Below, one piece after another: positions 32,301 through 42,184 of a stretch of 64,000 nt of DNA. Below the pieces are notes generated by a model, which was not told the origin of the DNA, did not search any database, and saw nothing but the letters and a program-made list of their open reading frames with translations. The DNA comes from Bacteroidota bacterium (GTDB lineage: Bacteria; Bacteroidota; Rhodothermia; Rhodothermales; UBA10348), in NCBI GenBank assembly GCA_029262855.1, contig JAJCYP010000104.1, forward strand, positions 1-64,000, written 5' to 3'. The position numbers and the translations under genes were made by a program. The number at the start of each line of letters is the position of its first letter. Positions within the stretch are counted from its first letter, which is position 1.

Positions 32301-32468
32301 GGCGCGAAACACGACCGTTGGATCTGAACGTTCCCGGTGGCCTTCGGCAGCGCCGCGCCCGCCGCGCCCCGCCGCAGCCATGAACCTTCCCCAAAGACGG
32401 CAGCGGAGAACGTCGGGAAATTGCCGGTCCTCATCGGGCCGGCTATCTTCCGCAGTTCTTTCGCACCA

Positions 32469-32668
32469 AGCGCCTCGGTCCACGCAAGTGGCCAAGAGGG
32501 AATCCGGTGACCGCGGGCTCTGGCCCCGGGAGTCCGGAACTGTACCCGCAACTGTAACCGATCGGACCGGATCCAGGAAGCGAATCTCCACTGCCCACGG
32601 CGGGAAGGAGACCGCAGAGATCCGGTGAGCACGAGGCCGATCGGGAGTCAGGAGACCTGCCGGGCGCT
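32469..32668 (+). promoter_or_regulatory. Cobalamin riboswitch
   Basis: The closing stem AGCGCC at 32469-32474 pairs with GGCGCT at 32663-32668. Inside are AAGAGGGAATCCGGTGA, GGAACTGTACCCGCAACTGT, a CCACTGC...CGGGAAGG block and the B12 box GTCAGGAGACCTGCC at 32647-32661, in the order of the AdoCbl class riboswitch. The 97 bases between it and the BtuB-like start hold ACCCC/GGGGT (32682-32698) and other short stems, the presumed expression platform. Bound cobalamin should switch the operon off. The stretch 32301-32468 before it shows nothing else I can name. Confidence 0.95.
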
Positions 32669-32765
32669 ATCAGCCAAACAGACCCCCGGGTTAGGGGTGT
32701 GGCCTTCGGAGTCCGGCATTGCCGGGTCAGTCTGACGGGTCCCACGTCCTATTGGGGTCAGGCCC

Positions 32766-34583
32766 ATGACTCACTCCGCCGTTATCAAGCGACTCCTGCT
32801 CTGGAGTCTGCTGCCGCCGATTGGTGCTTCCGCCCAATCGATTCCGGACTCCACAAAGGTGGTCCCCTTGGCAGAGGTCATCGTGGAAGGCCGACGGGCC
32901 CCATCCCCGGTGCATGGGAGAGAATTACTGGGAGTGGGAAGTGCTCCTGGCGCCAGCCTCGGGGCGATTTTTGCGGCCCGTCTCGGAGTCTATGTCCACG
33001 GTCAGGGTCCCGGGGCGCCCGCGACGCCACGAATTCGGGGGTGGGATGGCTCGCAGACTTCGCTCGTGCTGGACGGAATCACCCTGACAAACCCACAGAG
33101 CGGGCAGGTGGATCTCTCGATCATGCCCACCTCGTTCCTGGAGAGCGCCACGCTGGAGCTTGGTCCCGGAAGCGCACAAGGCGGCCTGGGCGGTGTCATC
33201 CGTTTGACCACCATCGCTCCGCGCCCTGGCGGTACGCTCCGCCTGGAGGCCTCCCGCGGGCCATTCGGAATCAGGCGAACCGCCGTTGCCGTCGGGCTGG
33301 CAGGTCAGTCCCTGGGCGGGCTTGTGGCCATGGATGCGGCCCGTTTTGCCCAGAACTACCGAACCGGGAGCGGAGCTACCCGGCCATCGGATGGAGGAGA
33401 TCGGATTTCTCTCCTCGGCAAGGTCTTCTACCAGGGCAGCTCAGGAAGATGGACCGGGCAGTGGTTCTCAAGCCATTCCGGAACGGGTCTCCCAGGGCCC
33501 GCCAACGGAAGGCCCCGAAACGCTTCCCAGGATCAGGATATCACGCAGGGACAGGTCGCTCTGCGGAGAGCGTCCTCAACGCGGGTTACTGACCTGTCCC
33601 TGGTGGCTCAGGAATCCAGGGGGAGATTCGAGGACCGGGACTCCGGCGCCATCAGCTCCAGCCGCACCCGCTCCATTCAGGCGTCAGCCAACGTCACGGA
33701 CAAGCAGTGGGCCGTGAACGGAAGCGTGGCCCGGGAATGGATGCCGGTTCAGTCGCAGTCGCAGCTCGCCGTGCGGATCGACGCCCACCGGGATTGGACC
33801 CTGCGGCAGGACGGACCGCTCCTGACGCTGGGTTTCGGCCAGGAAATCATCGCAGGGAAGTACTTCGCCATTCCGCGGGTGGGACTGCTGCACACGATTG
33901 GACCCGTGGAGACCTCGATTTCGGGCGGCCGGACGGTTCGTCACCCCTCCTTCGTTGAGCGTTTCTGGGTGCCGGGCGGCAACGCGAATCTCCAGCCGGA
34001 GGCTGGCTGGGGCGTCGAGGCGAATCTGGCAGGCTCCATGGGGTCGGCTCGGGTCGAAGTGACCGGTTTTCTGGCTCGGTTGACCAACCGCATCGTGTGG
34101 CACCCGAGCCTGGTGTCTGCCGGTTTGCAGGTCTGGAGTCCAATCAACGTGGGCCGCTCGGTTTCGAGGGGCGTCGAAGCGCGGCTGGCCCTTGGGGACG
34201 ACCGTCGTGGGTTGACCCTCGAAGGGACCTGGACATCGGCCACCGACAGGACCGACGAGAAGGCGGCGTCATTCGGCCACCAGCTACGCTACGCCCCCCG
34301 TCTGGTCGCGGCCGGCGAGGGATGGATATCCGTCCGCGGAGTCGTTCTCACATCGTCGGTGAAGAGAACGGGCCGACGGCCCATCGCCTCGGACGGATCA
34401 TTTTTCGAGCCTGCGTTCACTGTGGCCGACGCCACGCTGTCCCGCTCCGCAACAGCCCTTGGGCTGTCCCATCTCCTTTCGGTATCGGTAGCCAATCTGC
34501 TCGATGCCGACTACGCCGCTGTTCGGCTCTACCCGATGCCCGGACGACACCTGACACTCACCCTACGCATCGATCTTCCATGA
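32766..34583 (+). CDS. btuB: BtuB-like TonB-dependent cobalamin receptor
   Basis: The 605-residue protein has a signal peptide (LLLWSLLPPIGASAQS), a plug domain at about 35-150 (VPLAEVIVEGRR, then RIRGWDGSQTSLVLDGITL and LELGPGSAQGGLGGVIRLTT) and a beta-barrel ending in VSVANLLDADYAAVRLYPMP and an aromatic-poor terminal strand LTLTLRIDLP. The size and the short plug match BtuB rather than the larger SusC type. The riboswitch directly upstream assigns cobalamin as substrate. Its stop overlaps the next start by 4 bases. Confidence 0.9.
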   Translation: MTHSAVIKRLLLWSLLPPIGASAQSIPDSTKVVPLAEVIVEGRRAPSPVHGRELLGVGSAPGASLGAIFAARLGVYVHGQGPGAPATPRIRGWDGSQTSLVLDGITLTNPQSGQVDLSIMPTSFLESATLELGPGSAQGGLGGVIRLTTIAPRPGGTLRLEASRGPFGIRRTAVAVGLAGQSLGGLVAMDAARFAQNYRTGSGATRPSDGGDRISLLGKVFYQGSSGRWTGQWFSSHSGTGLPGPANGRPRNASQDQDITQGQVALRRASSTRVTDLSLVAQESRGRFEDRDSGAISSSRTRSIQASANVTDKQWAVNGSVAREWMPVQSQSQLAVRIDAHRDWTLRQDGPLLTLGFGQEIIAGKYFAIPRVGLLHTIGPVETSISGGRTVRHPSFVERFWVPGGNANLQPEAGWGVEANLAGSMGSARVEVTGFLARLTNRIVWHPSLVSAGLQVWSPINVGRSVSRGVEARLALGDDRRGLTLEGTWTSATDRTDEKAASFGHQLRYAPRLVAAGEGWISVRGVVLTSSVKRTGRRPIASDGSFFEPAFTVADATLSRSATALGLSHLLSVSVANLLDADYAAVRLYPMPGRHLTLTLRIDLP

Positions 34584-35671
34584 CCCGCTCCACGCTTCTG
34601 CTTCTCGTCCTGTTCTCGGTCGCCGCCTGTGATACTTCGGATCCCCTGACACCGGAGCCTTCGGCTTCTGCCGCCTGGGTAGCCAACGGAGGAAACTTCT
34701 CGGATCAGAATGGCTCTCTGTCCCGCATCTCCCTGCCTGCCATGTCGGCCGAGCAGGGTCCGACCATGGACGGCTTCATTCAGGCAGTCGAGCCTGCCGG
34801 CGAAGAACTGATCGTCCTCATCAACACGTTCTCGGGAGGACGGATTGACATCGTGGCGGCCGACGGGCGCACAGTCCGCGCCACCATTCCAGATATCGAC
34901 GCGCCCCGTGCGGTCGTAGTGGCCGGTGACAGGGCCTACGTCACGACCTTCGCCTTTGACGGCTCCGGGAGCGTCCTGACGCTCGACGTTCCCTCGGCGA
35001 CGCTTGTGGGGGACCCCATCCCCACGGGCTCGTATCCCGAAGGAATCGCCATCGCCTCCGGCCGGCTGCTCGTGGCGAACGCCGGATTCATTGGTGACGG
35101 CACGACCCTGACGGCGGTGCACCTCGCGACCGGCTCGGTGGACTCCGTCGAGTTGGCCTGTGACGGCCCACGGGATGTCCTGACCCTCTTCACCGGTGAC
35201 CTGGCGGTTACCTGCCTCGGAAGGACCGTGTACAGTGATGACTTCAGCGAGGTACTCGAGCGCACCAACGGGCAGGTGGTATTCGTGGATGATGAGACCC
35301 TGGAGGTCCAGGACAGGGTCATGTTCGAAACGCAATTGGGCTCCACCGGAGGGGGCCAGGCAGCGGCCGCCTCTCTGGATCATCTCCTGGTGCTCGAGGG
35401 TGTGACGAGCACCATCCGCCGTATCGAACTCTCCTCACGGACGTCCGTGTCCCCGTGGATCCTGGACGAAGGGGGTGCCTACGTCGGGGTTTCCGGGATT
35501 GCCCGATCCGCGGACGGCTGGTTCGTAGGACGGCTTGCCCGCGCCGCCGGCGGTTCGTTTCCGGACTACACCGCCGCCGGCCAGGTGGTTATCCTGGACG
35601 ATGACGGCCTGGAGGTACAGACCTTCCAGGTTGGCCCCGCGCCCACGCACATCGCCCTTTCAACAGACTGA
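34580..35671 (+). CDS. Lipoprotein beta-propeller, candidate BtuG-like B12-binding surface protein
   Basis: The 363-residue protein has a lipobox VAAC with Cys17 as the lipidated residue. The rest is a series of YncE/PQQ-like propeller blades, for example ADGRTVRATIPDIDAPRAVV, GDRAYVTTFAFDGSGSVLTL, GSYPEGIAIASGRLLVANAG and YTAAGQVVILDDDGLEVQTF. In Bacteroides, BtuG is a surface lipoprotein with a seven-bladed propeller that binds B12 tightly and hands it to BtuB. The ATGA overlap with the btuB-like gene under the same riboswitch makes the same role likely here. Sequence alone shows only a propeller lipoprotein; the BtuG call is inference. Confidence 0.8.
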   Translation: MTRSTLLLLVLFSVAACDTSDPLTPEPSASAAWVANGGNFSDQNGSLSRISLPAMSAEQGPTMDGFIQAVEPAGEELIVLINTFSGGRIDIVAADGRTVRATIPDIDAPRAVVVAGDRAYVTTFAFDGSGSVLTLDVPSATLVGDPIPTGSYPEGIAIASGRLLVANAGFIGDGTTLTAVHLATGSVDSVELACDGPRDVLTLFTGDLAVTCLGRTVYSDDFSEVLERTNGQVVFVDDETLEVQDRVMFETQLGSTGGGQAAAASLDHLLVLEGVTSTIRRIELSSRTSVSPWILDEGGAYVGVSGIARSADGWFVGRLARAAGGSFPDYTAAGQVVILDDDGLEVQTFQVGPAPTHIALSTD

Positions 35672-35673
35672 GT

Positions 35674-35883
35674 ATGCTGATAGATCGATGTCTCTGTCTT
35701 GGTGTCACGTTTCGGCAGCTCAAGGAGCAGGCCGACCGAACGGCGCACACCCGGCTCGAGGATCTGCAGGTGGTCATGCCCTTCGGTACGGGCTGCGGTC
35801 TGTGCAAACCGTATGTTCGGGAGATGCTGCGAACAGGCGTCACAGAGTTTGACCGGATCATCACGGACTCGGGCGATGCTTGA
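35674..35883 (+). CDS. BFD-like [2Fe-2S] protein
   Basis: The 69-residue protein has C6-x-C8, then 32 residues, then C41-x2-C44, the exact cysteine pattern of bacterioferritin-associated-ferredoxin (Fer2_BFD) domains, which hold a [2Fe-2S] cluster. The second pair sits in FGTGCGLCKPYVREML. It starts 2 bases after the propeller stop and overlaps the decarboxylase start by 8 bases, so it belongs to the riboswitch operon. It may be an electron donor, perhaps for corrinoid reduction, but nothing in the sequence proves the partner. Confidence 0.8.
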   Translation: MLIDRCLCLGVTFRQLKEQADRTAHTRLEDLQVVMPFGTGCGLCKPYVREMLRTGVTEFDRIITDSGDA

Positions 35884-37282
35884 GCTCTCCCGCGATGCCA
35901 TGGAGAGGCTGGGACGGACGGTGATGGAGCAATTGATCTCCCACCGCACGGGCATCAGAGACAAGGCCGCGGGCCGGGTGCTGTCGCGAAAGGAGGCGGA
36001 TTCGCTCCTGGCCGAACCGCTGCCGCTGGACGGCACTGACCCGGAGGCGCTGGTGGGGCGATTGGAACGGGAGGTGTTCTCGAACATCTCCCACGTTGAT
36101 CATCCGCGGTTCTTTGCCTTCGTGCCCGGTCCGGGCAATTTCGTGGCTACCATGGGTGCCGCCCTTGCGGCCGGGCACAACGTATTCGCCGGGACGTGGC
36201 TTGGCGGATCCGGGGCCGCGCGCCTTGAGCAGACCGTCATCGACTGGCTGAAGGAGGCCGTCGGCTACCCATGGGGGGGCGGTGGCCTGTTCGTGAGCGG
36301 AGGCTCCATGGCCAACCTCACCGCGCTTGGTGCCGCCCGGCATGCGAAACTGGGCAGCCACGATGCACGTGGCATCGTGTACTTCAGTGATCAGACTCAC
36401 TCTGCCGTGGAGCGCGCATTGCGGGTGCTCGGCATGCCGGAATCGCACATGCGCAGGATCCCGGCCGACCCGTCCTTCGGGTTGGACGTGGACCATCTCG
36501 CCGGACTGGTGCGCAGTGACCGGGAGGCCGGACTTACGCCGTTCTGCGTGGTGGCGAACGCCGGCACGACCAACACGGGAGCCGTCGATCCCCTGAACGC
36601 GATCGCCGAACTGTGCGAAACGGAAGGCCTCTGGTTCCACGTGGATGGGGCCTACGGAGCCGCGGCGGTATTCGGCCGCCGGGCCACGGAGAAACTCCAG
36701 GGCCTTTCCCGGGCAGACTCGATCGCGCTTGATCCGCACAAGTGGCTCTTCCAGCCTTTCGAATGCGGGTGCCTGCTGGTTCGCGATTCCGTTGCCCTGC
36801 GTTCGGCCTACGCCATCCACCCGGAGTACATGGTGGATACGCGGCTGGAGGACGAGGAAATCAACTACTGCGAGTACGGCGTGCAACTGTCCCGGTCGTT
36901 TCGTGCCTTGAGTCTCTGGCTGACACTGAAGACCTTCGGTGCAGGGGCCATGGGAGAGGCCATCGATCACGCGTTCGAGATGGCCGATCACGCCGAGGCT
37001 GTCCTTTCCGGAATGCCGGGCTGGGCGGTTGTCACGCGGCCCTCGATGGCCATTCTGACCTTTCGTTTCGTTGACGGACCAGAGGAGAGTCTGGACACGT
37101 GGAATGCGGCCATGGTGCGCCAACTCAGGGAGAGTGGCGTAGCGATGGTCAGCTCTACGCTGCTGGACGGCGCCTACGTCATTCGACTGTGTCCCACGAA
37201 CCCTCGGACCACCCGAGAGGACATCGAGGTTACGCTGGACGCGCTGGCCCAATCGGCGCGTGACGCCGGCTACTGTCTGTAA
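35876..37282 (+). CDS. PLP-dependent group II amino-acid decarboxylase
   Basis: The 468-residue protein is of the aromatic-amino-acid/glutamate decarboxylase type. It has PRFFAFVPGPGNFVATMGAA in the N-terminal region, LFVSGGSMANLTALGAARHA, VVANAGTTNTGAVDPLNAIA, WFHVDGAYGAAAVF with the PLP-pyridine-binding Asp near residue 256, and LDPHKWLFQPFECGCLLVRD with the Schiff-base Lys near 289. The substrate cannot be read; tyrosine, tryptophan, serine or aspartate are possible in this family. The ATG at 35876 overlaps the BFD gene by 8 bases, and its 3' end overlaps the convergent amidohydrolase gene by 13 bases. Confidence 0.9.
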   Translation: MLELSRDAMERLGRTVMEQLISHRTGIRDKAAGRVLSRKEADSLLAEPLPLDGTDPEALVGRLEREVFSNISHVDHPRFFAFVPGPGNFVATMGAALAAGHNVFAGTWLGGSGAARLEQTVIDWLKEAVGYPWGGGGLFVSGGSMANLTALGAARHAKLGSHDARGIVYFSDQTHSAVERALRVLGMPESHMRRIPADPSFGLDVDHLAGLVRSDREAGLTPFCVVANAGTTNTGAVDPLNAIAELCETEGLWFHVDGAYGAAAVFGRRATEKLQGLSRADSIALDPHKWLFQPFECGCLLVRDSVALRSAYAIHPEYMVDTRLEDEEINYCEYGVQLSRSFRALSLWLTLKTFGAGAMGEAIDHAFEMADHAEAVLSGMPGWAVVTRPSMAILTFRFVDGPEESLDTWNAAMVRQLRESGVAMVSSTLLDGAYVIRLCPTNPRTTREDIEVTLDALAQSARDAGYCL

Positions 37283-38654: not shown

Positions 38655-40163
38655 ATGAGTCTGACAGCTGCTTTTCCTCACACTTCAGTGCGAACGCTAG
38701 GTGCTCTGCGCGAGTCAGGCTACCAGATTCGCAGGGTAAAGGACGAGATCAGATCCAATCTGATCAAGGCACTCAAGAGCGGACGAGATCCGTTCCCCGG
38801 TGTCCTGGGATTTGAGCAGACGGTTATGCCCCAGATCCAGAATGCCATTCTGGGGCGACATGACTTCATCCTGCTCGGTCTCCGGGGCCAGGCCAAGAGC
38901 AGGATTCTCAGGCTGCTTCCGGGACTGCTCGACGAGTATATCCCGATGGTGGCCGGCAGCGACCTTCACGACGATCCATTCCGACCAATCACCAAGTATG
39001 CCAGGGACCTGATCGAGGAGCACGGCCGCGAGACCCCCATCGAGTGGCTTCACCGGGATCTGAGGTACGGCGAGAAACTGGCCACGCCGGACACCTCCAT
39101 CGCCGACCTGATCGGTGACATTGACCCCATAAAGGCGGCACACCGCAAGCTGACCTACGCGGACGAGGAAGTCATTCACTTCGGCATCATTCCGCGCACG
39201 AACCGCGGGATCTTCGCCATCAACGAACTGCCGGACCTGCAGCCCAGGATCCAGGTGGGCCTCCTCAACATCATGGAGGAGCAGGACATCCAGATTCGAG
39301 GGTTCAACATCCGGTTCCCGCTTGATGTGCTGATGGTGTTCTCGGCGAATCCGGAGGACTACACGAATCGGGGGAGCATCATCACCCCGCTGAAGGATCG
39401 GATCGACAGCCAGATCATCACGCACTACCCCACTTCCGTAGAAACGGGAATCGCCATCACCGATCAAGAGGCGTGGCAGGAGAGGGCGGGCGAGGTGGAT
39501 GTGACCGTCCCGCACTTCTTTCGGGAGATCATTGAGCAGGTAGCCTTTGAGGCCCGAGGCAGTGAGTATGTGGATCAGAACTCGGGCGTGTCTGCCCGGA
39601 TGACCAGAGCGGCCCTGGAAAACCTGATTTCCGCCGCGGAGCGCCGGGCCCTCCTCTGCGGAGAGTCCGAAACTACTGCGCGACCGTCGGACCTGTGGTT
39701 TGTGGAAGCCGCCATCACGGGCAAGCTGGAACTGGTCTACGAGGGCGAACAGGAAGGGGCCCAGACCGTGGCGCAAGTGCTCACCGGCCGAGCCCTGAAG
39801 GCCATGTTCGCGAAGCATTTCCCGGCGCCCGAGCGCGACCGGACCACCTATCAGAAGGTGCTTCGGTGGTTTGTTGCCGGCGGCGTGCTCGAGTTGCACC
39901 ACGACATGTCATTCACCGAGTATGCCAAAGCCCTCGATCAGGTGGACGGTCTGCGCGAACTCGTGGATCGTGTGGCTCGGCCAGACAGTCCGGCCGTCCG
40001 TGCGTCGACGATGGAACTTGTCCTTGAGGCGCTGCACCAGCACTCACTGCTCGGGAAGGAGGCCGGCCGCGGGTCGCGGATATTCGTGGACATGATGGGA
40101 TCCATGCTGTCGGGCATCGCCCCGGATGACGGGGACGAGTTCGAGGATTTCGACGACCAATGA
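38655..40163 (+). CDS. MoxR/magnesium-chelatase-I-like AAA+ ATPase
   Basis: The 502-residue protein has an AAA+ domain at about 30-290. The P-loop is LLGLRGQAKSRILRLLPG near residue 75, where an Ala stands in place of the last Gly of the usual GxxGxGKS. Walker B-like GIFAINELPDLQPRIQVG follows, then VMVFSANPEDYTNRGSIITP and LKDRIDSQI as sensor and finger. Helical C-terminal parts contain GVSARMTRAALENLISAAER. Such proteins usually work with a von Willebrand A partner, but none is adjacent. The M1 peptidase gene overlaps its stop (ATGA). Confidence 0.85.
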   Translation: MSLTAAFPHTSVRTLGALRESGYQIRRVKDEIRSNLIKALKSGRDPFPGVLGFEQTVMPQIQNAILGRHDFILLGLRGQAKSRILRLLPGLLDEYIPMVAGSDLHDDPFRPITKYARDLIEEHGRETPIEWLHRDLRYGEKLATPDTSIADLIGDIDPIKAAHRKLTYADEEVIHFGIIPRTNRGIFAINELPDLQPRIQVGLLNIMEEQDIQIRGFNIRFPLDVLMVFSANPEDYTNRGSIITPLKDRIDSQIITHYPTSVETGIAITDQEAWQERAGEVDVTVPHFFREIIEQVAFEARGSEYVDQNSGVSARMTRAALENLISAAERRALLCGESETTARPSDLWFVEAAITGKLELVYEGEQEGAQTVAQVLTGRALKAMFAKHFPAPERDRTTYQKVLRWFVAGGVLELHHDMSFTEYAKALDQVDGLRELVDRVARPDSPAVRASTMELVLEALHQHSLLGKEAGRGSRIFVDMMGSMLSGIAPDDGDEFEDFDDQ

Positions 40164-42184
40164 GGCGACTCGGCCCCAGCCACGTCCTCCGGCTGATCGC
40201 GGCCGCGCTTCTGTTTGGTGGCAGTGGCCCGGTCCTGGCGCAGACCTCTCAGGGCACCCAGACTCGGCTAGCGCCCAGCGGCAACGAGCTCGTCGCCTTA
40301 CCGGGAAGCGACCATCTCCATCGCGTCCCGCTCCGTGGCGGGGCCTCCGTGTCGTCGCCGGACTTCGATGCCACCTACTACGATCTGCAGCTTCGCATTG
40401 AGCTGAACCCGAACAATCTGGTGGGCACGGTACGCGTGAAAGGCGTGGCCCGCGCGGCGCTGACGCAGTTGGTCCTGGATTTCGATGATGCGATGCGGGT
40501 GGAGGGCGTGCTTTCGTCCAGTGGATCCGCCCTGTCGTCCACGCACAGTGATAACGCGCTCACCATCAATCTTCCCGGAGCGGTCTCGCCGGGAGATGAC
40601 GTGGACGTGACCGTCTCCTACGAAGGGCTGCCTGATTCCACCGGTCTGGGCGGCTTTGTTTTCGATACGCTGGCGAACGGAAAACCCGCCATCTGGAGTC
40701 TGAGTGAGCCGTACGCGGCCCGAACATGGTGGCCTTCGCGGGATCATCCCTCCGACAAGGCGGACTCGGTGGACGTGTCGATCGAGGTCCCCCAGCCACT
40801 GACTGCGGCCTCGAATGGACTCTTGACCCTGACAGAGAGCCTCCCTGGTGGATACCGCCGCTTCTCGTGGTCGCACCGCTACCCCATCGCCACGTATCTC
40901 GTTTCGGTGGCCGCTGCCGAGTACGACCTCGATGAGCAGACCTACACGCGGCCGGCCGCGTTGGCCCATGAACTGGGCAACCTGGATCTCCCGCTCGTGC
41001 ATTACAGTTTCGCGGGGAACGGAGCGTTCGTGGGCAGCCACCCCCAGTACGGATTTCAGTACATCACGGATATTTTCCCGGTCCTCGAAAGCTGGTTTGG
41101 ACCCTATCCATTCGACCGCGAGAAATACGGGCACGCGCAGTTCACGTTTGGGGGTGCGATGGAGCACCAGACTCTCTCCTCGATGACCACGAATTATCAG
41201 GGGACCATGGCGCACGAGCTTGCCCACCAGTGGTTCGGGGACTCGATCAGTCCGGAGTCCTGGCCTCACCTCTGGCTGAACGAAGGATTCGCCACGTTCG
41301 GTGAACTGGCCTACTGGAATGAGTCGGAGTTCCCTGACGTCTACGACCAGATTTTCGATATCTACTACAACCGCGCCTTGACAGCCGAGGGCACCGTTGT
41401 GGTTCAAGACACGACCGACATCCTGGACATGTTCGCCCACCGTAGGGTCTACTCGAAGGGGTGGATGGTGCTGCGGATGTTGCGCGGGGTGCTTGGCGAG
41501 TTCACATTCCGGGAGATCATGAAGGCGTACGCCGCCGATCCTCGCTATCAATACGGCACAGCGACAACCGAGGAGTTTCAAGCCTTGGCTGAGTCCATTT
41601 CGGGTCAGGACCTGGGCTATTTCTTCGACCAGTGGGTTTCGGCCGGCGATGGGTACCCGAGATATACGGCCACATGGGGAAAGCGTCCCAGCGGCGCGAA
41701 TTGGGAGGTCGAGGTTACGCTGGACCAGACCACGTCGGGATCGTGGAACCTGTTTCAGATGCCGATTGACATCCGAGTCGAGACGATTGGAGACACCCAT
41801 TCCTTCAGGATTTTCAATCAGTCGCCTCGGGACGTTGTGTTCTTTACGCTCAACGTCGAGCCGACCGGCGTTACGATCGACCCGGATCGTTGGATACTCC
41901 GGGATCCGGACATACAGGTGACCTCGAACGAGGCGGTTTCGGAGATCCCTGCAGAATCGGTCCTGGCCCTCTATCCGAATCCGACAACGAATTTGCTGAT
42001 GGTCGAATCCACCTTCCAGAACGAACGCCGGGCCGATCTGGTGGACGCACTCGGGCGGATCGTCTCCGTGCATCACCTGAAACCCGGTCTGAACCGGCTA
42101 CCGGTCTCACACCTCACGTCTGGTTTCTATGGCCTGCGGACTGAAGACGGCCGAACCTACACCTTCCTCCACTCGCCGAAATGA
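40160..42184 (+). CDS. M1-family metallo-aminopeptidase with T9SS sorting domain
   Basis: The 674-residue protein has a signal peptide (LIAAALLFGGSGPVLAQ). The M1 N-terminal beta-domain covers about 60-240. The catalytic domain has the substrate-binding GGAMEHQTLSSMT near residue 331 and HELAHQWFGDS near 351, followed 18 residues after the second His by the zinc-ligand Glu in WLNEGFATF. The last 80 residues (LALYPNPTTNLLMVES, ending GFYGLRTEDGRTYTFL) form a T9SS type A sorting domain, so the enzyme is exported through the type IX system. The start overlaps the ATPase stop and the stop overlaps the GNAT start. Confidence 0.93.
   Translation: MRRLGPSHVLRLIAAALLFGGSGPVLAQTSQGTQTRLAPSGNELVALPGSDHLHRVPLRGGASVSSPDFDATYYDLQLRIELNPNNLVGTVRVKGVARAALTQLVLDFDDAMRVEGVLSSSGSALSSTHSDNALTINLPGAVSPGDDVDVTVSYEGLPDSTGLGGFVFDTLANGKPAIWSLSEPYAARTWWPSRDHPSDKADSVDVSIEVPQPLTAASNGLLTLTESLPGGYRRFSWSHRYPIATYLVSVAAAEYDLDEQTYTRPAALAHELGNLDLPLVHYSFAGNGAFVGSHPQYGFQYITDIFPVLESWFGPYPFDREKYGHAQFTFGGAMEHQTLSSMTTNYQGTMAHELAHQWFGDSISPESWPHLWLNEGFATFGELAYWNESEFPDVYDQIFDIYYNRALTAEGTVVVQDTTDILDMFAHRRVYSKGWMVLRMLRGVLGEFTFREIMKAYAADPRYQYGTATTEEFQALAESISGQDLGYFFDQWVSAGDGYPRYTATWGKRPSGANWEVEVTLDQTTSGSWNLFQMPIDIRVETIGDTHSFRIFNQSPRDVVFFTLNVEPTGVTIDPDRWILRDPDIQVTSNEAVSEIPAESVLALYPNPTTNLLMVESTFQNERRADLVDALGRIVSVHHLKPGLNRLPVSHLTSGFYGLRTEDGRTYTFLHSPK

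Follow-up and report, generated by a model that had tools for sequence, protein, structure and literature searches.

Among the proteins that serve vitamin B12 uptake at the bacterial cell surface, BtuG has been described as exclusive to Bacteroidetes and was studied in gut strains, where it secures B12 against competitors and the host (PMC6143338). The BtuG set considered here comprises BtuG2 (BT1954), BtuG3 (BT2095) and BtuG1 of Bacteroides thetaiotaomicron, together with the PDB entries 3DSM (from B. uniformis), 8BMX, 8OKV and 8BLW. The cobalamin site of BtuG2 lies between the loop Asn54-Thr64 and the mobile beta-5A loop (PMC10404256). In this context, we analyzed a stretch of 64,000 nucleotides from a bacterium of the Rhodothermales, called the window below, and found a locus that is very probably an operon for cobamide uptake of the BtuB-BtuG type, in a bacterium that depends on B12 and makes no corrin itself. 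As in the BtuG systems, the propeller gene adjoins a btuB-type gene under a cobalamin riboswitch (PMC6143338, PMC10404256).

The operon is encoded on the forward strand and begins with a cobalamin riboswitch aptamer (RF00174) at 32458-32678. The cmscan match covers the full length of the model (1-189) with 84.7 bits (E 2e-19), where the gathering score is 31.5. The B12 box and the core motifs are present, and the aptamer is the sole cobalamin riboswitch in the 4.74-Mb genome. Cobalamin binding to this riboswitch class lowers expression and B12 shortage raises it. Here, too, cobalamin on the leader RNA would turn the operon down, and shortage would turn it up; inspection of the leader 3' of the aptamer revealed no terminator or clear sequestering hairpin. 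The receptor gene (32766-34583, 605 aa) follows, and its stop overlaps the start of the lipoprotein gene (34580-35671, 363 aa) in an ATGA at 34580. After two further bases comes a closely spaced third gene (35674-35883, 69 aa) for a BFD-like [2Fe-2S] protein, which was absent from the list of the first-pass annotation. That annotation had read the locus from the letters as a cobalamin riboswitch upstream of a BtuB-like receptor, with a propeller lipoprotein overlapping the receptor stop in the same riboswitch operon, and both parts of this reading hold. Its lipoprotein frame, opened at a GTG at 34097, proved over-extended; the start is placed at the ATG at 34580 on the evidence of the signal peptide and the lipobox (VAA-C17). 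A pyridoxal-dependent decarboxylase gene (35876-37282; Pfam Pyridoxal_deC, 1.3e-62) overlaps the stop of the BFD-like gene in turn; among 40 loci it stands beside the operon in one relative only (L032), and its co-transcription here is probably accidental rather than conserved with the operon.

The receptor carries the plug and barrel domains (Pfam Plug 1.5e-9, TonB_dep_Rec_b-barrel 4.2e-18) that it has in common with BtuB2, BtuB3 and the BtuB of E. coli, in a chain that is shorter than BtuB2 (about 690 aa). Its best solved relatives in a sequence search of the PDB are BtuB2, BtuB3 and BtuB1 of B. thetaiotaomicron (E 2.5e-20 to 1.2e-14), with E. coli BtuB far behind (E 2.6e-4). Judged by these sequence comparisons, it would be the same type of partner as the BtuBs that pair with BtuG. 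The best-scoring NCBIfam family is TonB-B12 (8e-19), whose equivalog cut-off of 599.7 bits is not reached by the 67.5 bits scored, and the protein is named BtuB-like for this reason and not filed as a TonB-B12 equivalog. The TonB-B12 model presumably describes the proteobacterial type.

The lipoprotein consists of a signal peptide, the lipid-anchor candidate Cys17, an acidic stretch after it, and a propeller at about residues 29-363. Its sequence alone yielded no significant match in Pfam, NCBIfam or the PDB sequences, and a scan of genome contigs with this single sequence found no relatives. A wide alignment was too divergent for the contig search, and the family alignments were built from whole-genome matches instead. 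The resulting 33-member profile matches the solved BtuG3 and BtuG2 end to end (E 2e-25 and 1.6e-24), and a profile-profile comparison with BtuG by hhalign gives 99.5% and E 5e-23 over 321 columns, at a sequence identity of 16-19%. The Pfam family DUF5074, which occurs in BtuG2, is recognized in 15 of the 33 members, the protein studied here being one of those that lack the match. In the profile search the archaeal 1l0q scored better than BtuG (E 1.8e-34) but only over repeated partial stretches, and it was rejected as the closest relative; matches to TIGR03622 (urea permease) and to 3s6d were likewise partial and judged to be chance.

An AlphaFold model (pLDDT 94.5, pTM 0.90) predicts a propeller of the seven-bladed type, the fold of BtuG. 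In the Foldseek search BtuG chains take the first 16 places, and the VIA-align superposition on 3dsm reaches Z 35.2 with an rmsd of 2.1 Å over 300 residues. Other propellers score between about 29 and 34 (1l0q 33.7, lactonases near 31, YncE in 3vgz 28.7). Since so many propellers fall in this range, the fold alone is not decisive, and it is rank, sequence and context together that decide. The family profile meets YncE (3vgz) at E 8e-5, far below BtuG. In the Foldseek ranking BtuK1 (PDB 9S6C), a B12-binding propeller of Bacteroides, comes after BtuG at E 1.6e-10 and 11% identity. The first-pass annotation had suggested that the lipoprotein may be a BtuG analogue and had proposed a structure prediction as one check, with an unlike fold speaking against it. 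With BtuG chains as the best matches the suggestion survives this check, and the profile comparisons and the predicted fold together support a stronger version of it, in which the lipoprotein is a distant homologue of BtuG rather than a mere analogue.

The family keeps the B12-contact residues of BtuG2 in part. In the alignment, the BtuG2 loop (NEGNFQYSNAT) corresponds to NGGNFSDQNGS. No other motif of the Rhodothermales family is so well conserved, and Gly38 and Phe40 in it are invariant; the shared pattern NxGNF...N belongs to the loop that grips B12 in BtuG (PMC10404256). The column of BtuG2 Tyr335 holds Tyr or Phe in 33 of 33 members. Across the contact loops, taken from the same paper (PMC10404256), conservation exceeds that of the remaining columns (Mann-Whitney p 2.6e-5), a difference to which structural constraint could contribute. 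The residues of the upper-ligand cavity follow another course, unlike BtuG2: Trp272 and Tyr316 are not conserved in the family, Trp194 is replaced by Leu, Phe or Ile, and the placement of Tyr239 varies between alignments. BtuG3 is also without Trp272, yet binds CNCbl. The mature lipoprotein is acidic overall, as BtuG is, with 46 D/E against 17 K/R. A further difference from BtuG is a pair of cysteines, invariant Cys194 and near-invariant Cys212 (about 35159-35215 of the window), which BtuG lacks. They flank the root of the loop equivalent to the mobile beta-5A loop of BtuG2 and plausibly form a disulfide that stiffens it.

Anchoring of the propeller appears to have been solved in two ways. A lipobox is present in 31 complete orthologues, 29 recognized by pattern and two by eye (L035 and L038), and is followed by an acidic stretch (on average 3.1 D/E among eight residues in the family). 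This stretch resembles the lipoprotein export signal as defined for Bacteroidetes (PMC5080379) and may act as an export signal here too, which would be a feature in common with BtuG. Seven other orthologues (L051, L052, L053, L055, L057, L059 and L061), from several families, have no lipobox and carry a type A sorting domain of the type IX secretion system (T9SS) in its place, a variation unlike BtuG. No orthologue combines the two, and one or two switches of anchor suffice on the tree. T9SS cargo is exported, and the T9SS-tailed orthologues thus lend independent support to a role at the cell surface. Our search of open-licence papers found none linking BtuG to T9SS. Within the window itself, an M1 peptidase at 40160-42184 bears a T9SS C-terminal sorting domain, which suggests a type IX secretion system in the source genome.

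The association of the parts can be followed through the whole order. Of 60 relatives searched by whole genome, 43 have homologues of the lipoprotein. These cover most of the order's families, and named records place the group in the Rhodothermales. The expectation that a homologue would occur outside gut Bacteroides, in an environmental organism, is thereby confirmed. Rhodothermales are treated as a separate phylum by NCBI and stand inside Bacteroidota in GTDB. Riboswitch and propeller lie 1.9-2.4 kb apart on the same strand in all 36 genomes that have both on one contig, with the receptor between them at nearly every locus; in seven other genomes the two are split over contigs, or the riboswitch is missing from the list compared. 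Scored over 60 genomes, both are present in 42, neither in nine, and nine are discordant (Fisher p 1.4e-5, uncorrected for relatedness). Because it recurs across the whole order, the arrangement is not due to chance. The linkage is also seen in further families of the class and in a few more within the phylum, and the propeller occurs in two records labelled Flavobacteriales. One family (f4; L114, L120 and L121) has the riboswitch, the receptor and, directly after it, the BFD-like gene, with no propeller detected between them.

The genome content fits a need for uptake. The source genome encodes four genes with B12-binding domains, including MetH-like and mutase-like frames, a PduO-type adenosyltransferase and, elsewhere, a BtuF-like and BtuC-like gene pair. 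CbiC was not found in any of 22 genomes (the source genome and 21 relatives), which makes de novo corrin synthesis unlikely, and together with the B12-using genes this implies that the cofactor must be taken up. B12-binding domains occur in 16 of 16 tested genomes, and B12 use is hence non-discriminating. In the proposed mechanism the propeller, lipid-anchored and exported to what is probably the outer face of the cell, would cover the co-encoded receptor as a lid that binds corrinoids. Cobamide would be captured on its acidic face through the NGGNFSDQNGS loop and other conserved loops, and handed to the TonB-driven receptor. The BtuF- and BtuC-like proteins would then bring it into the cell, where it may serve MetH and methylmalonyl-CoA mutase.

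Two other readings of the lipoprotein have to be weighed against this one. Propellers of the DUF5074 superfamily might have been recruited here for another ligand, such as a metal chelate or another cobalt compound, or the protein might be a non-binding structural lid or secretion partner of the receptor. Propellers do serve many ligands, the aromatic residues that line the upper-ligand cavity in BtuG2 are not kept, and the additional cysteines have no counterpart in BtuG; against this, the gene is strictly linked to a cobalamin riboswitch and a BtuB-type receptor across the order and beyond, and the loop that grips B12 is the very motif conserved best. BtuG and then, behind the archaeal 1l0q, the B12 binder BtuK1 are moreover among the nearest folds. 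We consider this reading unlikely. That a generic propeller of the YncE or lactonase kind merely adjoins btuB is more improbable still, to the point of being hardly credible: the lack of significant database matches for the single sequence and the many propellers that fit the fold would allow it, but the constant spacing in 36 of 36 genomes, the first place of BtuG among full-length matches by both profile and fold, and the far lower scores of YncE speak against it. The uptake operon of the BtuB-BtuG type therefore remains our preferred reading.

Further differences from the BtuG systems are that there is no BtuH domain and that the propeller is followed by the BFD-like gene. The product of this gene shares with the bacterioferritin-associated ferredoxin (Bfd) and the Fer2_BFD family the CxC...CxxC motif and a length of about 65 residues, has no signal peptide, and differs from Bfd in its place in a cobalamin-riboswitch operon. 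It lies above the cut-off of Pfam Fer2_BFD (1.4e-7), reaches 25.6 bits against the 75 bits of the NCBIfam Bfd equivalog, and had no match among PDB sequences at E 0.1; being below 75 bits, it is filed under the Fer2_BFD domain family only and not as Bfd. The cluster motif is conserved across loci except in L036, where it is degenerate: the copy at L036:7379-7543 is decayed and has lost most of the cluster cysteines. In most loci the gene lies 3-75 bases 3' of the propeller; the distance is 248 bases in one locus and about 1.6 kb in three loci of one family (f13), where it stands behind a BtuF-like gene. It is absent from four loci with room for it (L052, L053, L055 and L059) and was not found in two families (f14 and f15).

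The distribution of the gene reaches beyond the importer. In relatives that have lost riboswitch, receptor and propeller it is kept at the same place beside a TolC-like gene, which argues that its function is independent of the importer. This siting occurs in L118, L122-L126, L128 and L129, most of them without detected riboswitch or propeller, although G024 has a riboswitch elsewhere; those tested have genes with B12-binding domains and no CbiC. In Balneolaceae-like families, a homologue sits between dCTP-deaminase-like and rsmE-like genes (names assigned from sequence motifs). A strict assignment of BFD to B12 import is weakened by its retention without the importer, its siting in the Balneolaceae-like families, the decay in L036 and the absence from f14 and f15. 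A tentative and rather doubtful proposal is that in Rhodothermales the BFD-like protein belongs to the uptake operon as a dedicated third part. Located in the cytoplasm, it would give electrons for the processing of imported cobamide, either for taking off the upper ligand or for a Co(III)/Co(II) reduction step ahead of adenosylation. The same proposal has the propeller delivered by one of two routes, lipoprotein export or type IX secretion. That the protein helps to reduce imported cobalamin is speculative, though it would suit a cytoplasmic [2Fe-2S] protein whose gene is controlled by B12; a general redox function, with the co-transcription being accidental, is no less likely. Among open-licence papers we found none linking BFD to cobalamin, and a link of this small conserved iron-sulfur gene to B12 would seem to be new.

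With these results, the BtuB-BtuG capture pair spans an environmental order and neighbouring families, which indicates that the device is old within the wider Bacteroidota lineage and is not an adaptation to the gut. What is new is its occurrence in another lineage, where an extra gene is conserved and some orthologues use an alternative anchor. The exchange between lipid anchor and T9SS poses the testable question of whether the lid needs a lipid tether, and with the conserved BFD-like gene it becomes possible to test directly what reduces imported cobalamin in such bacteria.
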